Shown: positions 22,575 to 55,048 of the stretch, in pieces
Layout of the letters: every line of letters begins with the position of its first letter
How positions within the stretch are numbered: position 1 is the first letter of the stretch
Position numbers and translations under genes: made by a program
Notes under the pieces: model-generated
Seen by the model: the letters and a program-made list of their open reading frames with translations, nothing else
The model's database searches: none
Told to the model about the DNA's origin: nothing
Source of the DNA: Bacillota bacterium
GTDB taxonomy: Bacteria; Bacillota; Clostridia; Caldicoprobacterales; DTU083
DNA: 55,048 nt
Reading direction: 5' to 3'
Assembly: GCA_029549985.1 (NCBI GenBank)
Contig: JAKPIB010000042.1
Coordinates: forward strand, 1 to 55,048

Positions 22575-23129
22575 TTATACAGGTCCATTATGTTGATGCT
22601 CCCTTGTATATGTCCTGTAGGCTCTTCTTATGGACCTGACCCTTGTGCTTTTGCAGTCAAGAGGCAGGCGAGCGATCATCTCTCCGCAGGATACGACTCC
22701 GGTCTCTTTGAAGCCAAAGCCGGCATACAGAGCCCTGGCAGCCTCATTTGACCGGTTGTAGGCGACATATATGGCATCTGCGCTGCCCAGGGGACAAGCT
22801 TTGATCTTGTCAAGCAGTATGGCAAAGGCCATTTTCCCATACCCCCTGCCCTGATAGTCCTTGTCGATCATAAACCTGCAGATAACATAGCTGCTTTCGC
22901 CGAATCTGCTTTCCCTTGCTGTCTCCCTGTATGCCATGGCAAAGCCTATGACGGTCCTGCCCAGGCAGATGGCATAGGTCAGGGGAGGCTGCCTGTCATT
23001 GAGCAGGGCAACATAAGACTGGGCCAGGCTGTAGACATTGGATGCAATGAAAGGTTTCTGTTCATCCTTGACCCTAAGGTTGATGCAGGCTTCCCAATTG
23101 TCCCAGGTGATCTTTTCGAGACTGACCAT
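22575..23129 (-). CDS. GNAT acetyltransferase (intact paralogue of the broken copy at 28088)
   Basis: A 184-residue GNAT protein: MVSLEKITWDNWEACINLRV at the N-terminus, acetyl-CoA motif CRFMIDKDYQGRGYGKMAF (about residues 86-104) and the NEAARALYAGFGFKETG signature near the end. It resembles SpeG/PaiA-like acetyltransferases that act on polyamines or small amines. ATG 23129 is chosen because the broken homologue aligns from the same Met; GGGGGAT precedes it. The tail after the domain (TRVRSIRRAYRTYTREHQHN) is an Arg-rich extension absent from the paralogue, possibly from a shifted 3' end. Confidence 0.83.
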   Translation of the reverse strand: MVSLEKITWDNWEACINLRVKDEQKPFIASNVYSLAQSYVALLNDRQPPLTYAICLGRTVIGFAMAYRETARESRFGESSYVICRFMIDKDYQGRGYGKMAFAILLDKIKACPLGSADAIYVAYNRSNEAARALYAGFGFKETGVVSCGEMIARLPLDCKSTRVRSIRRAYRTYTREHQHNGPV

Positions 23130-23223
23130 CACACCATCCCCCGCAGGAGCAGTCATGCTCACTAAAACCCCGGCTGCATCTTTCAGTCACAATCACATCC
23201 GGAAAAACTACAAGGGGTTCACA

Positions 23224-26200
23224 TTATTGATATTTCGAGAAAATCTCCTCCATTTTATCGTCTGAAAGCCCGAAATATCTCTGCATCTGGCTCTTGAAGA
23301 CCTCATTGCGGCCTGCTATCCTGTTTCGCAGCTTTTCCACGTTCCCTTTCCAGGTCGTGTAGCTGTATATCATCCAATAGCTGCAATGCCTTTGCATTTC
23401 AGGCTCAAGCTGGGCATACAGCCTATCGAAGATCTCAAGGCGGTCCTCTACCGTATGGGTCAGGTGGTAGGCCCAGCGGTCATACAGCTTTTCCCGCCAG
23501 CCATCGTTCATCTTGAGCCCTGTTGTGATCCACATGTTCGTAAAGGAGCCATCCCCTGTCTGTATGCCTTTCCCGGAGAAATAATGCCAGATCACGTTGG
23601 CATTGAAGTAGCCATAATCCAGATCGAACCATATGGGCCGTATTTTGACCGTATTATCATTGGTGTACCAGTATTTCTGGTTGAAGGTGTCAGCATTGCC
23701 CGTATAGGCTTGCAGGAATATATGGTCTATGAAGGCATCCACGTCCACATACTTTGCAAACTCCTCGTAATGCCCAGGGTCATTCAGGTCATAGGTCTGG
23801 GCATACTCCTGGGCCCACAGGATCCGCTTGTTGCTCCCCTGCAGGACCGAGGAGTTGCGCCTGATTATGCTGATATCATCCGGATCGACGCCATGCCTTG
23901 CGGCGAACATGTCCTCGTTGGAGTTCTCCTTGAGCTCATATACTCCACGGTACTGACCGTTTATGTATACTACCACATACCGGGTCTCTGCATAGTCTGA
24001 GTTGAACTTCTTTCCCAGCATGGAGCAAAAGGCGTCGGTTATAAAGGTAGAGGTGGAATCATCGTTGTCCTGCCCCCCATTCCTCAGGGTCAGGCTCTTG
24101 AACTCCGTTATATCATAATCCTCGAAAAACGGATATATGACTGACGATTGGCCATATCCGCCCCGCAGATATATATTGTAGGATTTTTGCGGGTATATGC
24201 GGGTACTGGCCCCGGCCAGCCTGAAGCCGGCCGGAAAGGAGGTCCCCAGCTTGCCGTCCGGCTCATAATATTCTATATGACAGAGCCGCTCCACAATGGG
24301 CGCAGACTTTTTAAGATCAGCATTTACCTCATCGATATCCGACGGCTTTGCCGAAAGACAAACCACAGGGATCTTATGCGGCTCCTCGAACAAAAATGTC
24401 GCCACCACCTTGTCGCTGGGGAGCTTGCCCGGCTCTAAGGACACAGCAGATACTACGGTGTTTTTCGTTATCCTGATAGGCCCTGTATAGGGTATCGAGT
24501 CCTCAGTCGGCGTGCTGCCGTCTGTGGTATAGTATACATTTTTACCTTCGATCTCAAGGGTAAAGCTTTTGGTGTAAAAGCCCCCCTTATGGGAAAAAAC
24601 CGGAGCCGCTGAATAAGTGGTTACCGGTTTTGAATTCGCCGCCATAGGAGTTGGTTTTGTGAAGAAATACCTCTGCCCGGAATAGTCATCCCGGGCACGC
24701 CCGCTCGTGAGCCCGTATCTCAATGCCCCTGTATAAAAAACGTCTACTATCTCGTTTGAGGCATTTGAGAGCACGAGCAGGTCACCCGCCATGCTTATGT
24801 TCATCTGCAGGGTATCCTTTTCCCTGGAGCCTGCCCTCGCGTAAAAGACCTTATATGACCTGGGCCCTATAGTCCCTGTCAGCTTGCACATGAAAGGGTC
24901 ATCCAGATCCTTGCCGATATGCCAGCCTGTGAGGTCTACCTCCTTGTCGCCGCTATTGTAGAGCTCGATCCAGTCCCTGTCCTCCGCTCTATTTGCAGAA
25001 GCCCTGGGCATGGACACGGCTGACACCTCGCTGATAAACACCCCTGTCCTGCTCAGCCTCTCAACTGATGAAATGCTTTTATGGCCGTGGGAGGTGTTGG
25101 CGGAGTTGGGCGTAGGCTGGCCGAAATACAGCCATTCGCCGTCCTGCTCGCCGTAGGATATGTTGTCGAGCCGGCTCTCGTCGGGTATCTCGATGGTTTG
25201 TGTACGCAGGGCGGAGAAATCAGTCAGGATCACAGGCTCGCCTGCTGCCACCCTGAAGCCGGTATGCAGGCCGGTGTCCCGCCCGCTAAGGAAAATCACC
25301 AGGTATTCTCCGGGACCCAGCTTTTTATCCGGCAGCCTCCACTTGTCAAGGTCGTATGGGTTGTCGGATAGGTAATAGTAGCTTAGATCGATGGCTCTGT
25401 CCGAGTAGTTGTGCAGTTCCACCCAGGGAGACCTGTCCCCGAACTCATCCATCAGGGATGTCGTGTTCTTGAGCAATACCTCGGATATCCTCACCGGGTC
25501 CGCTTCAGTCATGGGCGAGATATCCAGGCTATAAAGGCAGATATCGGAGTTTGCCTGCCCAGGGGTGAGATCCGGGAAATAAGCGATATCGCCGTTTTGA
25601 TCCAGCCCCACGGACATGCTGTCGTACAGGTCCTTTACCACTAGTGAGCCGATGAGCCTGGATTCTATGGAGAAGTAAACGGCCTCTTCCGTACCGGAGA
25701 TCCCGAAGGATGCCCTATGATCCCCTATATCCCTGTTGAGCCCTATGACCATGTACTGGCCGGGCAGGATCTCTACATTGGGGAAGCGCCATTTCGTAAG
25801 GCTGGAGGCATTGTCTGACAGGCAATAGGAAGCAAGGTTCACAGCCTCCTGTGAACCATTGTATATCTCGACCCAGTCCCTGGTGGCCTCGTTCAGGCGC
25901 AGGCCTGGCGCTGCGCTTATCATTTCGAGCTCATCGATCGAGTCGGCCATGATGCCTGAATTCTTGTATCCAGGAGTAGTAGTCGAGCAATACTTGAACC
26001 CTTCCGGTGTCCTGCACCAGCTGATGTCCCTTTTCAGGGCAGGGACCTCCACCTCGTCTACGACCCTCAGGCTGGAGTTGAGCAGCACAAGCCCTACTCC
26101 GTCCCTGGAAAGGTTGAAGTCCGTGCAAAATGCCCAAAGCTCCTCGTCCTCAGGCTTGCTGCAGGCATAAATGACCAGGTAGTCGTCCGCCTTCAGGACG

Positions 26201-26484
26201 ATGTTTGGGAATATGTAATAGGCGGAAGGCTTTTTCGAGCTGCGCAGCACATAGCCTCCCATATTTATGTCATTGCCGCTCCCGTTGTATATCTCTATCC
26301 AGTCAGGCGATCCCAGCCCGGATACGGACAACGAGTTGGTGTTCGATGTCACGACCTCGTTTATGACAAGGCCGCGGTCTCCTGTGTCAAGGAGCGAGCA
26401 TGCCGCCATAAGGCCTGCCAGTGACCCGGCAAGCAAAACCAGGCTTACAGCCAGGGATATTGTCTTTATAATCCTTACAGCCAT
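23224..26484 (-). CDS. CotH-kinase lipoprotein with four lamin-tail domains and a chitobiase-type domain
   Basis: A 1086-residue surface lipoprotein. Order: signal peptide with lipobox-like GLMAAC (about residues 24-29); four lamin-tail-type beta domains (about 36-170, 185-315, 325-485, 490-640), each with an INE/LNE/ISE opening and a W-[IV]-E-[LI]-[YH]-N strand; a chitobiase/HEX C-terminal-type module with YYTTDGSTPT (about 655-720); then a CotH kinase domain (about 725-1080) with LAGASTRIYPQKSYNIYL, LRNGGQDND, VVYINGQYRGVYELKENSNED and IRPIWFDLDYGYF. CotH is a protein-kinase-like fold that phosphorylates spore-coat proteins in Bacillus. ATG 26484 follows AGGGAGATC. Third gene of the VTC-DUF4956-CotH operon; it may phosphorylate or attach to surface proteins. 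Confidence 0.87.
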   Translation of the reverse strand: MAVRIIKTISLAVSLVLLAGSLAGLMAACSLLDTGDRGLVINEVVTSNTNSLSVSGLGSPDWIEIYNGSGNDINMGGYVLRSSKKPSAYYIFPNIVLKADDYLVIYACSKPEDEELWAFCTDFNLSRDGVGLVLLNSSLRVVDEVEVPALKRDISWCRTPEGFKYCSTTTPGYKNSGIMADSIDELEMISAAPGLRLNEATRDWVEIYNGSQEAVNLASYCLSDNASSLTKWRFPNVEILPGQYMVIGLNRDIGDHRASFGISGTEEAVYFSIESRLIGSLVVKDLYDSMSVGLDQNGDIAYFPDLTPGQANSDICLYSLDISPMTEADPVRISEVLLKNTTSLMDEFGDRSPWVELHNYSDRAIDLSYYYLSDNPYDLDKWRLPDKKLGPGEYLVIFLSGRDTGLHTGFRVAAGEPVILTDFSALRTQTIEIPDESRLDNISYGEQDGEWLYFGQPTPNSANTSHGHKSISSVERLSRTGVFISEVSAVSMPRASANRAEDRDWIELYNSGDKEVDLTGWHIGKDLDDPFMCKLTGTIGPRSYKVFYARAGSREKDTLQMNISMAGDLLVLSNASNEIVDVFYTGALRYGLTSGRARDDYSGQRYFFTKPTPMAANSKPVTTYSAAPVFSHKGGFYTKSFTLEIEGKNVYYTTDGSTPTEDSIPYTGPIRITKNTVVSAVSLEPGKLPSDKVVATFLFEEPHKIPVVCLSAKPSDIDEVNADLKKSAPIVERLCHIEYYEPDGKLGTSFPAGFRLAGASTRIYPQKSYNIYLRGGYGQSSVIYPFFEDYDITEFKSLTLRNGGQDNDDSTSTFITDAFCSMLGKKFNSDYAETRYVVVYINGQYRGVYELKENSNEDMFAARHGVDPDDISIIRRNSSVLQGSNKRILWAQEYAQTYDLNDPGHYEEFAKYVDVDAFIDHIFLQAYTGNADTFNQKYWYTNDNTVKIRPIWFDLDYGYFNANVIWHYFSGKGIQTGDGSFTNMWITTGLKMNDGWREKLYDRWAYHLTHTVEDRLEIFDRLYAQLEPEMQRHCSYWMIYSYTTWKGNVEKLRNRIAGRNEVFKSQMQRYFGLSDDKMEEIFSKYQ

Positions 26485-26528
26485 TTTGATCTCCCTATAT
26501 ATCCGGCGCATAGACAAGGCCGCCCTGG

Positions 26529-27203
26529 TCAACCCAGCGTTTCACCGCTTCTTGCGACCATGTTCACAGTGAATACTCCGTCTATGTCCTTGATTTTCTG
26601 ATTAGTGTATCCATTGGCCTTGCCTTTTTTCAACTTGATCTGGTAGACAAGCTCCGTATAGTCTCCGGTTATCGTCTCACCCCGCAGCTTGTGGGTCTCA
26701 TACAGCTTTTCGGTCTCCCGCCTTACTGAAGCAGCGGCATCCTTGCTGCAGCGGACGATCAGGAGGTAGCTGTCATCATTTTTCAAATTTTTGCTCAGCA
26801 GGATTGTAACTGCGCTCACTACAAGGGTGCCGGCCCCTACCATGAAATAGTTGCCCGAGCCGCAGCCGAGCCCGATCGTGATCGCCCAGAATATGTAGGC
26901 CGTATCCCTGGGGTCCTTAATGGCAGTCCTGAAACGGACTATGGACAGGGCGCCAACCATACCCATTGAAAGGGCCAGGCTGTTGCCCAGTATGTTCATG
27001 ACGATCGTGGTGATAAGAGAAAGCATGACAAGGGTGATATTGAACTTTTTACTGTAAGCTACCCCGCTGAATGTGATCTTGTAGACAAAATACACTATGG
27101 TGCTTAAGCCGGCCGCAACAAGCATGTTCAAAAGAGCGATACCGGGCTTTACAGTGGTTCCGGCATTGAAAAACAAAGCTAAAATCTCTTTGATGGTCTC
27201 CAT
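26529..27203 (-). CDS. DUF4956 membrane protein
   Basis: A 224-residue protein with about four transmembrane spans in the first 135 residues and a cytoplasmic alpha/beta tail. The diagnostic stretch GMVGALSIVRFRTAIKDPRDTAYIFW (about residues 80-105) between spans is the hallmark of DUF4956 and is followed by the glycine-rich GLGCGSGNYFMVGAGTL. It starts at ATG 27203 with AGGAGACAG upstream. It sits between the polyphosphate-polymerase-type gene (24-base gap) and the CotH lipoprotein (44-base gap) in one operon. A role as membrane partner of the VTC enzyme, for example polyphosphate movement, is inference. Confidence 0.85.
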   Translation of the reverse strand: METIKEILALFFNAGTTVKPGIALLNMLVAAGLSTIVYFVYKITFSGVAYSKKFNITLVMLSLITTIVMNILGNSLALSMGMVGALSIVRFRTAIKDPRDTAYIFWAITIGLGCGSGNYFMVGAGTLVVSAVTILLSKNLKNDDSYLLIVRCSKDAAASVRRETEKLYETHKLRGETITGDYTELVYQIKLKKGKANGYTNQKIKDIDGVFTVNMVARSGETLG

Positions 27204-27227
27204 AACATCTGTCTCCTATACTATTTA

Positions 27228-27932
27228 TTAGGATATAAAATCGCCAAACAGCCTGCGTGACAGGGTATATTTGCTGTATGCCCCCATATCGAGACCATAG
27301 GCATCCAATATATCGCTGATCCATTTAAACAAATAGTTGTCGTACTTTACCTCAAGTATTGCTTCATAGTAGTCCGTTACCGGAAAAAGTACAGGTGCTT
27401 GTGAAAACAGGTCAAAGTTGGTTTCGCTGCTCAATATATCCCTGTCAAGTGTTATGCGGATATTGTTGATGGGATGCATAAAGGCGCTGCGCCTGTATTG
27501 ATTCATCACGACAGGCCGCATGGTGTAGATGGCTATGCCGTTTTTAAGCAGCATCTCCTCTATGCCTTTGTTTTGAAGGGCGATATCGTAGTCCTTGTTG
27601 ATCAGCGCTTCCGCCTCGGGTCTGCTTATCAACAGCGTGTGCTTCTGCTGGAATCCCCCTCTCTTTTCCTTAAGCTCAAGCTTCACCGTATCAAAATCGG
27701 GCGGATAGATGCGCAAGCGAAGCTTGAACCGTTCCATGACCCCGCTGACCTTGTCATAATATGCCGTTTCGGAATAGTCATCAAAATAGACAGAACGTAT
27801 CATATAGCCGTCTGGAGCATTATGCCTGTCCGGTATCAGCATTGCGCTCAATGCTGAATACAGGCCGGTATACTGCCAAAAGCTTATCGGATACTTCTCT
27901 TCTACCCGTTTGACCCTCAAATCTCCGCTCAT
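27228..27932 (-). CDS. VTC-domain polyphosphate polymerase
   Basis: A 234-residue single-domain VTC-type (CYTH/triphosphate tunnel) enzyme. Basic and acidic tunnel residues typical of the family are present: VEEKYPIS at the start, MIRSVYFDDYSETAYYDK, RFKLRLRIY, KLELKEKRGGF, MNQYRRSAF, IRITLDRDI and EAILEVKYD near the C-terminus. VTC enzymes make polyphosphate from ATP. There is no SPX domain and no membrane span; the neighbouring DUF4956 gene supplies a membrane component. ATG 27932 follows GGAAAGGAG; the extension to 28001 lacks a ribosome binding site. First gene of the operon. Confidence 0.86.
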   Translation of the reverse strand: MSGDLRVKRVEEKYPISFWQYTGLYSALSAMLIPDRHNAPDGYMIRSVYFDDYSETAYYDKVSGVMERFKLRLRIYPPDFDTVKLELKEKRGGFQQKHTLLISRPEAEALINKDYDIALQNKGIEEMLLKNGIAIYTMRPVVMNQYRRSAFMHPINNIRITLDRDILSSETNFDLFSQAPVLFPVTDYYEAILEVKYDNYLFKWISDILDAYGLDMGAYSKYTLSRRLFGDFIS

Positions 27933-28087: not shown

Positions 28088-28561
28088 CTATAGAGCCAGC
28101 CTTGCGACCACCTCTCCGCCGGACATTTCACCGGTCTCGACAAAGCCAAATGCCGAATACAGCCTTCGCGCGGCTTCATTTTCAGGATGGTATGACAAAT
28201 ATACAGCGGTTGCATTCCCCTGAGGAAATGTTCTGATCAGCTCCAAGGCCTTTGCAAGCGCCTCTTTGCCATACCCCTTTCCCTGATGGTCCTTATCGAT
28301 CATAAACCTGCATATCCCATAGCTTTCTTCATCATATTCGCTCTCATCTGCCGTATCGTGATACATCATCACGAACCCGATAACATCGCCGTCATTGCAT
28401 ATGGCATATGTCATAGGCGGCAGCTCGTCATTGAGCAATGCAACATATGACTGGGCCAGGCTATACATATTGGATGCGATGAACTCCTCCTGCTCCTCCT
28501 TGACCCTGAGTCGAATGCATGCTTCCCAGTTGTCCCATGTGATTTACTCCAAAGTGATCAT
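28088..28561 (-). pseudogene. GNAT acetyltransferase interrupted by an in-frame TAA
   Basis: The frame opens at ATG 28561 behind GGAGGACAG and reads M-I-T-L-E, then TAA (28544-28546), then ITWDNWEACIRLRVKEEQEEFIASN and on to the complete GNAT domain ending at 28088. The intact paralogue at 22575-23129 reads MVSLEKITWDNWEACINLRV, so the stop replaces its Lys6 (AAA or AAG to a stop). After the stop the first in-frame Met is at 28468, and it would remove about 30 N-terminal residues. The rest of the domain (CRFMIDKDHQGKGYGKEAL, NEAARRLYSAFGFVETG) is undamaged, so the mutation looks recent. It follows the membrane-protein gene 29059-28610 by 48 bases. Confidence 0.85.
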
Positions 28562-38869: not shown

Positions 38870-39262
38870 TCACCTGAAACATTTTATCACCCATTGCCCA
38901 CCATTACAATGCAGATTATGACAAATATGCTGTTCAAAATAAGGCAGGTTTTTGTTCAGGCCACTTCTTTCTCTATACATATAAGTATATATCAAATAAA
39001 GAGTCGTCAAACGTTGTTGTCCATCTATCACTTCAAACCATTCGTCGGCTTCGAGCCCCTTTTCTTGCACATCTTTTTCCGAAAGTCTCTTTACTACCAG
39101 AGGCTGCAAGCAATAGTTCTTAGGTCCATTAATATAGATATCGTCAAGAAGTCGTATAACTTCTTCTTGGCCCCAGCGGTATCCTCGCTGGTAGGATGGT
39201 ATAAAAAATCCACCTTGAATTTCTCCAACCAGCTTTAATGTAAGCTTATTTTCTGAATCCAC
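38870..39262 (-). pseudogene. Truncated DUF262 (GmrSD-like) gene, N-terminal fragment only
   Basis: The GTG at 39262, eight bases after GGGGG, starts VDSENKLTLKLVGEIQGGFF, then FIPSYQRGYRWGQEEVIRLLDDI and WFEVIDGQQRLTTLYLIYTYM. These are the hallmarks of the DUF262/ParB-like N-terminal domain (the DGQQRLTT motif is the nucleotide-hydrolysis signature). Family proteins are usually above 500 residues; here homology stops after about 110 and a non-matching tail ends at 130. The C-terminal part (DUF1524 or similar HNH-type domain) is gone. Such proteins take part in defence against modified phage DNA, so this is a likely relic of a defence gene. Confidence 0.75.
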
Positions 39263-39392
39263 TGTAAAAACCCCCAAATACATCATAATCATCAAAATTT
39301 CACCATGTACAATATGTATTATATCATGTATAACTGAAATCAGTGCCCCAATAAATAAAAAGTTAGATATACACAATTTGCATAAAAGGGTT

Positions 39393-39768: not shown

Positions 39769-40248
39769 CTAATGCTTCTCTTTCATGCCGCACCACTCGA
39801 TTACCCCGCAGGCCAGCCTTTTTCCCGCATTACCCGACGGCTGGGTCCTGTAGTCATCCGGGTTTTCATGGATGATCACTGACCTTCCGATCACCTCGTG
39901 CACCCTGAACTTGTTTGTGTAAAAGCTCATCAGGGCCCTGCCATTGTTGGAAAAGAGAACAGGAAGGTCGCCGGCGTGGTTGCCGTGGGGCTGGTTATAA
40001 GGATTCCAGTGGTCGCCCGCCGCCTTGAATGGGTCATTGGGGTCCCCGACCTCGCAGTTTCCATACTGGTGTATATGGAACCCAAAGGGGCCTATGGGAC
40101 CTGAAGTGTCTGTACCGGGTTTATATTCCGGCAGCCCCGAGACCTGTACGCTAACCCAGGTGCCGCCTATCGTATCCCTGAAATGCACGGTCCCCCTAAG
40201 CTGCGGGCACAGGGGACCTCCCTTGATGTGAGCCACAGCCGTATTCAA
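39769..40248 (-). CDS. Cu/Zn superoxide dismutase-family protein without a signal peptide
   Basis: A 159-residue member of the SodC family. Copper/zinc ligands are recognisable: GFHIHQYGNC, the HGNHAGDLPVL segment (His and Asp for zinc) and SVIIHENPDD; the disulphide partner Cys is in GNAGKRLACGVIEW. Unlike most bacterial SodC proteins it has no export signal. The start is TTG 40248 with AGAGGTGAT upstream. It may remove superoxide in the cytoplasm or act in metal handling. No other oxidative-stress genes are adjacent. Confidence 0.87.
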   Translation of the reverse strand: MNTAVAHIKGGPLCPQLRGTVHFRDTIGGTWVSVQVSGLPEYKPGTDTSGPIGPFGFHIHQYGNCEVGDPNDPFKAAGDHWNPYNQPHGNHAGDLPVLFSNNGRALMSFYTNKFRVHEVIGRSVIIHENPDDYRTQPSGNAGKRLACGVIEWCGMKEKH

Positions 40249-53197: not shown

Positions 53198-55048
53198 TCA
53201 CCTCATGTTTTGACTTTTGAAAGACATATGTTTTACCCTGTCACGTTCCTCTTCCCTTTTGGCATCATTGAATCTGTCAAGAGTACCTACCAGGTATCCG
53301 GTAATCCGCCTTATCCTTTCAAATTTGATTTCTCCTTCTTCACGACCGCAGTAAGGACATGTATTGCCAATAATTCCGGTATATCCGCATACAGGATCTC
53401 TGTCTATCGGATGGTTAACAGCACCATAGCCTATGCCGGCTTCCTTCATCGCTCTGATAATTTTCTCAAAAGCCTTCAGGTTTTGCTTTGGATCACCATC
53501 CACCTCAATATAAGTAATATGTCCTGCATTGGTCAGCTCATGGTATGGTGCTTCAATTCTTATCTTATCAAAAGCATTAATTTCGTAGTATACCGGAACA
53601 TGGAAGCTGTTCGTGTAATATTCCCTGTCAGTAACACCTTCTATGGAACCATATATTTTTCTGTCCATTTTCACAAATCTTCCTGCCAGTCCTTCAGCAG
53701 GAGTTGCCAAAAGGGTGAAGTTCATTTTACATTTTTGGCTAGCCTCGTCCATACGTTTACGCATATGACCAATTATTTTTAGACCAAGTTTCTGGGACTC
53801 TTCAGATTCTCCATGATGCTTTCCTGTCAATGCCTTAAGGCATTCTGCAAGCCCAATAAATCCAACTGAGAGCGTACCATGCTTCAATACTTCTCTGACT
53901 TCATCTTCCCAGCCAAGTTTGTCCGAATCAATCCATACCCCTTGCCCCATCAAGAATGGGAAGTTCTTGACTTTTTTGCGGGCCTGAATTTCAAATCTTT
54001 CCAGCAACTGGTCTATAACAAGATCAATTTTTTCATCCAGCTCAGTAAAGAATTTACTTATGTCATTATTACTTCTTAATGCAATCCTTGGAAGATTTAT
54101 TGTTGTAAAGCTCAAATTTCCTCTTCCGTAGACTATTTCCCTGGAAGGGTCATAGACATTGCCTATTACTCTTGTCCTGCAGCCCATATATGCTACCTCT
54201 GTTTCAGGTCGACCCGGTCTGTAATATTTGAGATTGAACGGAGCATCCAGAAATGCAAAGTTCGGGAACATTCTTTTGGCGCTTACTCTGCAGGCAAGCT
54301 TGAACATATCATAGTTTGGATCTCCGGCATTATAATTAATGCCTTCTTTAACCTTAAATATTTGTACAGGGAATATGGGGGTTTCTCCATTGCCAAGACC
54401 TGCTTCAGTGGCCAGAAGAAGGTTTTTGATAACCAGCCTGCCCTCGGGGGAAATATCAGTACCATAATTTATTGAACTGAAAGGCACTTGTGCCCCGGCT
54501 CTGCTATGCATGGTATTTAGATTATGAATAAAAGCCTCCATAGCCTGGTATGTGTTCCTGTCTGTTTCCGCCTGTGCCTTTTCAATAGCAAAAGACTGCA
54601 CCTTGTTGATAAGTTTCACATCCGGTATAAATTCTAAAAGATGCTTTCGTTCCTTATCCAAATATCTTTCATTGGGAATCAGCGTCGGATAAAGTCCATC
54701 CTCATCTTCAAGTTTTTTTGAAACCATTTTAACCAGCGTTGTCGCATCTTTCATGTCCAATAATAACTCCAATCCTTTGGCCAAATTCTGCCTGTATAGT
54801 CTGGAATAGGTCTTTGCAACACCTAAAGCCATACCATAATCAAAGTTAGGTATGCTTTGCCCACCATGCTGATCGTTCTGATTAGACTGAATTGCTATAC
54901 ATGCCAGGGCGGAATAGCTTTGGATATCGTTTGGTTCTCTCAGATACCCATGCCCTGTACTGAAACCATTTTTGAAAAGTTTAACTATATCAATCTGGCA
55001 GCAGGTGGTAGTAAGGATATAAAAGTCTAAATCATGTATGTGAATATC
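53198..55048 (-). CDS. nrdD: Anaerobic (class III) ribonucleoside-triphosphate reductase, N-terminus beyond the window
   Basis: The frame is open to the right edge, giving the last 616 residues. Seen: TTTCCQIDIVKLF near the visible start, NQNDQHGGQSIPNFDYG, the MGCRTRVIGN catalytic Cys region, a C-terminal zinc-ribbon CxxC pair (DPVCGY and NTCPYCGREE) and the glycyl-radical sequence RITGYLVGT close to the C-terminus (the Gly in GYLVG). It makes deoxyribonucleotides without oxygen. The missing 5' part would hold the ATP-cone if present. nrdG follows directly. Confidence 0.95.
   Translation of the reverse strand, partial: DIHIHDLDFYILTTTCCQIDIVKLFKNGFSTGHGYLREPNDIQSYSALACIAIQSNQNDQHGGQSIPNFDYGMALGVAKTYSRLYRQNLAKGLELLLDMKDATTLVKMVSKKLEDEDGLYPTLIPNERYLDKERKHLLEFIPDVKLINKVQSFAIEKAQAETDRNTYQAMEAFIHNLNTMHSRAGAQVPFSSINYGTDISPEGRLVIKNLLLATEAGLGNGETPIFPVQIFKVKEGINYNAGDPNYDMFKLACRVSAKRMFPNFAFLDAPFNLKYYRPGRPETEVAYMGCRTRVIGNVYDPSREIVYGRGNLSFTTINLPRIALRSNNDISKFFTELDEKIDLVIDQLLERFEIQARKKVKNFPFLMGQGVWIDSDKLGWEDEVREVLKHGTLSVGFIGLAECLKALTGKHHGESEESQKLGLKIIGHMRKRMDEASQKCKMNFTLLATPAEGLAGRFVKMDRKIYGSIEGVTDREYYTNSFHVPVYYEINAFDKIRIEAPYHELTNAGHITYIEVDGDPKQNLKAFEKIIRAMKEAGIGYGAVNHPIDRDPVCGYTGIIGNTCPYCGREEGEIKFERIRRITGYLVGTLDRFNDAKREEERDRVKHMSFKSQNMR

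Follow-up and report, generated by a model that had tools for sequence, protein, structure and literature searches.

The stretch of DNA analysed here (the window) comprises 55,048 nucleotides of contig JAKPIB010000042.1 from a Bacillota bacterium of the lineage DTU083. On its minus strand, from position 27932 to 23224, lies an operon of three genes in the order VTC, DUF4956, CotH lipoprotein, with intergenic gaps of 24 and 44 bases and a Shine-Dalgarno-like sequence that can be read ahead of all three start codons (Table 1). A scan for promoters and terminators revealed no convincing minus-strand promoter upstream of the VTC gene. An earlier note, made from the sequence alone, had described a VTC-type tunnel enzyme, a DUF4956 membrane protein and a 1086-residue lipoprotein with four lamin-tail domains, a chitobiase-type domain and a CotH kinase domain, and both the Pfam matches and the coordinates agree with that description. 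It was written unaware that the same set had been published, as cotH-PPP-DUF4956, among the accessory genes of Gram-positive Pel operons (PLoS Pathog 2020; PMC7112168). The window operon is a stand-alone lamin-tail variant of this known but unexplained module.

The three genes form a conserved, co-evolving functional unit. Among 80 independent loci chosen by the DUF4956 profile alone, with one genome per species, a VTC gene was present in 78 and a CotH gene in 76, mostly within 50 bases and in at least four gene orders (VTC-DUF-CotH, CotH-VTC-DUF, CotH-DUF-VTC and DUF-CotH-VTC). These loci belong chiefly to Bacillota, but extend to Spirochaetales, Campylobacteraceae and archaea; none of the 80 contained a VTC-DUF4956 gene fusion. 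Across 61 related genomes DUF4956 occurred in 25, VTC in 26 and CotH in 27, with DUF4956 and VTC found together in 24 (Fisher p about 1e-13) and DUF4956 and CotH in 23 (p about 1e-10). Corynebacterium glutamicum gives scores for each of the three families. The statement in the earlier note that these families are often neighbours is borne out by these counts, and the neighbourhood, whose absence elsewhere was named there as a refutation, is conserved beyond the window's genome. Pairwise correlations of tree distances across 64 loci were high (r of 0.91, 0.79 and 0.84, uncorrected for shared species history), and none of 999 permutations gave values as high. Five relatives within the family keep the window-type operon as exactly three genes, with flanks that differ except in the member of the sister genus. 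All three genes are under purifying selection, the ratio of nonsynonymous to synonymous substitution rates (dN/dS) in these five relatives being 0.05-0.12 where unsaturated (0.08-0.12 for CotH). A chance neighbourhood was rejected on the combined basis of locus counts, co-occurrence, conservation in relatives and tree-distance correlation.

Neighbouring genes were analysed over the 10 kb fetched per locus, although many contigs were shorter and 5 kb on both sides was covered in 46 of the 80 loci. Loci encoding a small CotH had a polysaccharide synthase as neighbour in 41 of 51 cases: 32 of the 51 carried a PgaC-like glycosyltransferase family 2 (GT2) synthase and/or a HEAT protein and a protein of ~700 amino acids, nine lay inside Pel operons, and MBOAT and AlgX-like acetylation genes were also present in seven loci. 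In contrast, no such synthase was present in the 10 kb fetched, or less where contigs were shorter, for any of the 25 lamin-tail CotH loci, and it is to this stand-alone class that the window operon belongs. In two Paenibacillus species PelG and CotH are fused into a single protein (L074:6080-9187 and L099:6077-9181), in which an additional transmembrane helix and the remnant of a lipobox separate the exporter from the kinase; this helix would place CotH outside the cell. In GT2-type operons the gene for the ~700-amino-acid protein immediately follows that for CotH (L038:4072-6186 and 26 other loci). The protein has no Pfam or NCBIfam match and is a conserved component of this polysaccharide system. 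A Lachnospiraceae locus (L080:3608-13062) contains two DUF4956-CotH pairs ~5 kb apart within one polysaccharide cluster.

Table 1. Features of the VTC-DUF4956-CotH operon in the window.
Feature	Position	Strand	Basis
Putative polyphosphate polymerase with a VTC-type triphosphate tunnel domain, 234 aa	27228..27932	-	PF09359
DUF4956 membrane protein, 224 aa	26529..27203	-	PF16316
CotH lipoprotein, 1086 aa	23224..26484	-	lipobox, PF00932 x4, PF13290/PF13287, PF08757
Shine-Dalgarno-like AAGGAG ahead of VTC start codon	27938..27943	-	sequence reading
Four lamin-tail domains, residues ~30-585 (outer limits approximate)	24730..26397	-	PF00932 stretches, best 480-584
CHB_HEX_C_1 / Fn3_assoc beta-sandwich, residues 634-690	24415..24585	-	PF13290, 50.6 bits
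CotH kinase domain, residues 755-1061	23302..24222	-	PF08757, 95 bits vs cut-off 23.8

The VTC protein is a single-domain protein that lacks both a transmembrane segment and an SPX domain, and the VTC family is the only one to score above its Pfam cut-off (115 bits against 23). A profile built from the module VTCs matches yeast Vtc4 (3G3Q, E 7e-13). Thirteen charged residues (R9, E11, K13, R72, R74, E86, K88, K97, R148, R159, E194, K196 and K221) are 100% conserved, after rounding, in 95 module VTCs. In the alignment to 3G3Q, R72, R74 and E194 are the equivalents of Vtc4 R264, R266 and E426, mutation of which impairs yeast VTC (PMC9911596), and all three are kept in the window protein. The VTC protein thus keeps the tunnel active site of Vtc4, and the possibility of a degenerate or dead enzyme was rejected on account of the conserved tunnel residues and purifying selection. 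A search for PPK1 in the window's genome gave no match (PPK2 lay outside the search), which makes its VTCs the sole polyphosphate polymerases detected there within that scope.

The DUF4956 protein scores 53 bits against PF16316 (cut-off 30.6). Its AlphaFold2 model, with a predicted local distance difference test score (pLDDT) of 86.6, has five predicted membrane helices followed by an ACT-like C-terminal domain. The structural matching bears on this C-terminal domain only, for which the best match was the C-domain of MgtC (2LQJ; Z 10.8 over 84 residues, 2.6 A). Other ACT and ferredoxin-like domains follow with Z of 9-10, indicating that the fold is widely shared, and the score against the MgtC family itself (PF02308) is 13.4 bits, under the cut-off of 31.4. 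The motif GALSIVRFRT..KD is near-invariant, and R90 and R92 are 100% conserved, after rounding, across 101 sequences and also invariant in the alignment A4. The C-terminal domain of the Streptococcus intermedius homologue is stated to be cytosolic (PMC12345266); if the same holds here, the basic motif would lie at the cytosolic face of the membrane. On a Hymenobacter plasmid (L138:6977-9060) a DUF4956 gene directly precedes a gene for a TolC-family outer-membrane channel; CotH is not annotated at that locus, and since the upstream proteins have no Pfam match, a VTC protein there is unproven.

The CotH protein of the window has the lipobox LMAAC, with LSAC and LAAC in orthologues, and 82 of 84 module CotHs possess an N-terminal membrane segment, signal peptide or lipobox. 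A phmmer search of the PDB with the single CotH sequence returned chance matches only; Bacillus cereus CotH (5JD9) was found instead with a profile of the module CotHs (E 1e-35). The structure prediction that the earlier note had called for matches the same protein: the AlphaFold model of the CHB and CotH region (pLDDT 93) gives Z 31.4 when aligned to 5JD9 (318 residues, 2.5 A), while the nearest folds after it, PI4K and Fam20C among them, reach a Z of at most about 13. The CHB part (model residues 4-80, protein residues 623-699) matches domains of the carbohydrate-active-enzyme structure 8ayr (Z 10.8) and of BT0459 (6q63, Z 10.3). E853, N930-x-D932 and D954 are present in the window protein and conserved in 93-98% of 96 module CotHs, D932 and D954 being the equivalents of the catalytic residues D228 and D251 of Bacillus subtilis CotH, and the lysine of the QKS motif is also kept. 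A degenerate or dead CotH is unlikely, given the retained catalytic residues and low dN/dS. The second possible refutation raised in the earlier note, loss of VTC tunnel or CotH catalytic residues, is likewise contradicted by the alignments.

The two classes of CotH appear to differ in the adenine pocket. In Bacillus CotH the adenine of ATP is held between Tyr142 and Trp245 (PMC12189002). By sequence alignment across this variable region, small CotHs have Tyr or Phe at the Tyr142 position in 53 of 57 proteins and Trp at the Trp245 position in 52 of 57, whereas in the lamin-tail CotHs the Tyr142 equivalent appears to be mostly gone and Phe or Tyr replaces Trp245 in 34 of 39. The window CotH aligns with Ser or Ile at the former position and Phe at the latter, and its D-x-x-N loop seems to be shorter. 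The apparent retention of the Tyr/Trp sandwich makes a nucleotide donor likely for the small class.

Outside the operon itself, no exopolysaccharide synthase was detected by Pfam in the window, no pel genes were found among its annotated open reading frames (ORFs), and PelG is absent from the whole genome. Two similar GNAT acetyltransferase genes (22575-23162 and 28088-28468) flank the operon on either side. They were rejected as members of the unit, since of the five relatives only L118, from the sister genus, keeps them and L119-L122 do not. The same genome contains a second, paralogous operon on contig C26 (L008:6534-10656) in the order DUF4956-VTC-CotH, whose CotH has a single lamin-tail domain plus a membrane helix at its C-terminus, and which adjoins a gene for a SpoIID-like SH3 protein. 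An additional, solitary CotH gene is located on contig C49. Elsewhere in the window, a short ORF (38870-39376) encodes only part of a GmrSD restriction endonuclease N-terminal domain and is probably a gene remnant, and a copper/zinc superoxide dismutase gene (39769-40248) occurs in a genome that also has an anaerobic ribonucleotide reductase (53198-54832).

Several known systems share parts of this arrangement. The Pel accessory set, studied in S. intermedius as SIR_1594-SIR_1593-SIR_1592 (mBio 2025; PMC12345266), has the same three families adjacent, a secreted CotH and a DUF4956 protein with MgtC/ACT features. However, it flanks pelDEADAFG and in S. intermedius its CotH carries an FN3 domain, whereas the window operon stands alone in a genome without PelG and its CotH has four lamin-tail domains, CHB_HEX and a lipobox. 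The S. intermedius authors found no such arrangement outside Pel loci (PMC12345266); that most copies of the module lie outside them is new. The split in context between small and lamin-tail CotHs, the Paenibacillus PelG-CotH fusion and the apparent loss of half of the adenine sandwich from lamin-tail CotHs are also new. A tight VTC-DUF4956-CotH order is shared with NELoc-2 of Clostridium perfringens (PMC2879425) and a Planococcus maritimus plasmid (L139), in both of which a ~690-amino-acid protein, a HEAT protein and a GT2 synthase follow, none of which is present in the window. In 2010 the NELoc-2 protein at the DUF4956 position was labelled ‘tubulin/FtsZ’; from their position and size, CP4_0461 and CP4_0464 (‘tubulin/FtsZ GTPase’ in Table 4 of PMC2879425) are most likely DUF4956 proteins.

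Among better characterised relatives, the eukaryotic VTC complex (Vtc1/3/4) has in common with the module the VTC tunnel domain, the same catalytic residues and a membrane partner. The window set differs in having no SPX domain and no match to a Vtc1-type three-helix subunit, in its DUF4956/MgtC-like partner and in the addition of CotH outside. The Bacillus spore-coat kinase CotH (5JD9/5JDA) has the same kinase fold and catalytic Asp residues, but such partners are not described for it in the literature found, and the window protein is instead a lipoprotein with extra domains and a seemingly altered adenine pocket. With the MgtC family, DUF4956 would share the C-terminal domain fold and a multi-helix membrane part, as judged from the model, despite a PF02308 score far under the cut-off.

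We tentatively prefer, at somewhat less than even chances, the reading that polyphosphate is synthesised in the cytosol and that DUF4956 couples this synthesis to a phosphotransferase working on a surface polymer outside the cell. The VTC protein would make polyphosphate from ATP at the cytosolic face, and DUF4956, whose invariant basic motif lies on the predicted cytosolic side, would dock it to the membrane. DUF4956 may then either pass the nascent chain outward, like the membrane part of yeast Vtc1/3/4, or gate the reaction via its ACT-like domain. In yeast, polyphosphate synthesis by VTC is coupled to passage via a basic membrane channel (PMC9911596). CotH, outside, would transfer phosphate to a protein or glycan at the surface. 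At most loci with a small CotH this acceptor could be the exopolysaccharide encoded next to it or the machinery that exports that polymer, while in the stand-alone type found in the window it may be brought by CotH's own lamin-tail and CHB_HEX domains. In favour of this reading count the adjacency and co-evolution of the three genes, the retained catalytic residues, the CotH fold, the export signals of the module CotHs, the altered Pel level and aggregation of S. intermedius deleted for DUF4956 or CotH (PMC12345266) and the lack of PPK1 in the window's genome. The earlier note had suggested a pathway that starts from ATP or polyphosphate and ends in the modification of an extracellular protein or polymer. 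This survives as the best reading, with a surface polymer as target supported by the polysaccharide contexts and the PelG-CotH fusion, but as a linear chain it does not fit the S. intermedius phenotypes.

Those phenotypes and the adenine pocket of the small CotHs weigh most against a simple chain with polyphosphate as donor. S. intermedius strains lacking the DUF4956 or the CotH gene aggregated less and had an altered level of Pel, which was raised in the former case and lowered in the latter; for the VTC deletion, unlike these, no aggregation phenotype was reported (PMC12345266). These results do not fit a simple route running linearly from VTC through DUF4956 to CotH, which is thus not established. 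Furthermore, VTC-DUF4956 pairs without CotH occur (L051, L082 and L111), the MgtC-like fold predicted for DUF4956 would fit regulation equally well, the apparently intact Tyr/Trp sandwich of the small CotHs favours a nucleotide donor, and no enzymology of any bacterial module VTC was found in the literature. Alternatively, DUF4956 may be an MgtC-like metabolite sensor controlling the VTC protein or the polysaccharide synthase, with polyphosphate staying inside and CotH acting separately with a nucleotide donor that reaches the surface. The MgtC-like C-domain is the top structural match of DUF4956, the increase in Pel upon its deletion looks regulatory, the small CotHs apparently keep the adenine sandwich, and the S. 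intermedius authors themselves remark on a link to MgtC (PMC12345266). Nevertheless, DUF4956 pairs near-obligately with VTC rather than with a synthase, the stand-alone pairs included, and an invariant basic motif would be odd for a mere sensor; we regard this explanation as somewhat unlikely.

The yeast precedent of coupled synthesis and translocation (PMC9911596) could also be taken further, such that VTC and DUF4956 extrude polyphosphate itself and CotH attaches it to, or primes it on, a surface acceptor to give covalent polyphosphate-protein or polyphosphate-glycan. B. subtilis CotH is reported to phosphorylate serine-rich coat repeats many times (PMC7821199), and stand-alone modules have no polysaccharide synthase nearby. 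However, the operon encodes no acceptor and the small CotHs sit with glycan synthases. Moreover, no kinase of the CotH fold is known to transfer a polyphosphate chain, and the idea seems quite improbable. Similarly doubtful is a VTC protein that acts as a tripolyphosphatase or nucleotide-processing tunnel enzyme, clearing or feeding a phosphate metabolite for its membrane partner. It would account for the silent VTC deletion in S. intermedius (PMC12345266), and the tunnel superfamily is functionally diverse with many phosphatases (PMC4641920, PMC8233210), yet all Vtc4 active-site residues tested are conserved, R264/R266/E426 equivalents included, and the domain scores point to the VTC family. 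Finally, the window CotH might be a pseudokinase, or a surface scaffold resembling an adhesin, that functions through its lamin-tail and CHB_HEX domains. Its PF08757 score is lower than that of the other two CotHs in the genome (95 versus 177-179 bits) and lamin-tail CotHs seem to have lost the Tyr142 equivalent and exchanged W245 for Phe, but E853, N930, D932, D954 and the QKS lysine are kept, dN/dS is low and the fold matches the CotH kinase with a Z of 31, making this very improbable.

Returning to the coupling of polyphosphate synthesis to a surface phosphotransferase, a bolder form of it holds that polyphosphate exported by a bacterial VTC complex is itself the donor for the extracellular kinase, allowing ATP-free phosphorylation of surface proteins or glycans. 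We consider this unlikely, but if true, the lamin-tail CotHs, with the Tyr of the sandwich apparently lost, would be the most specialised form of polyphosphate-powered phosphorylation.

With these findings the published Pel-only view gives way to a module of general distribution in two forms, one embedded in exopolysaccharide loci and the other standing alone with a lamin-tail CotH; each appears to have its own kinase-pocket signature. NELoc-2, a poorly understood enteritis-associated locus, and the streptococcal Pel accessory genes are thereby joined into one system. The module could show how bacteria phosphorylate surface polymers in places that lack ATP. Kinases at the cell surface have no obvious supply of ATP, and where such a kinase is encoded together with a polyphosphate synthase and a membrane protein, as it is in this conserved set, the question of the donor can be tested directly.

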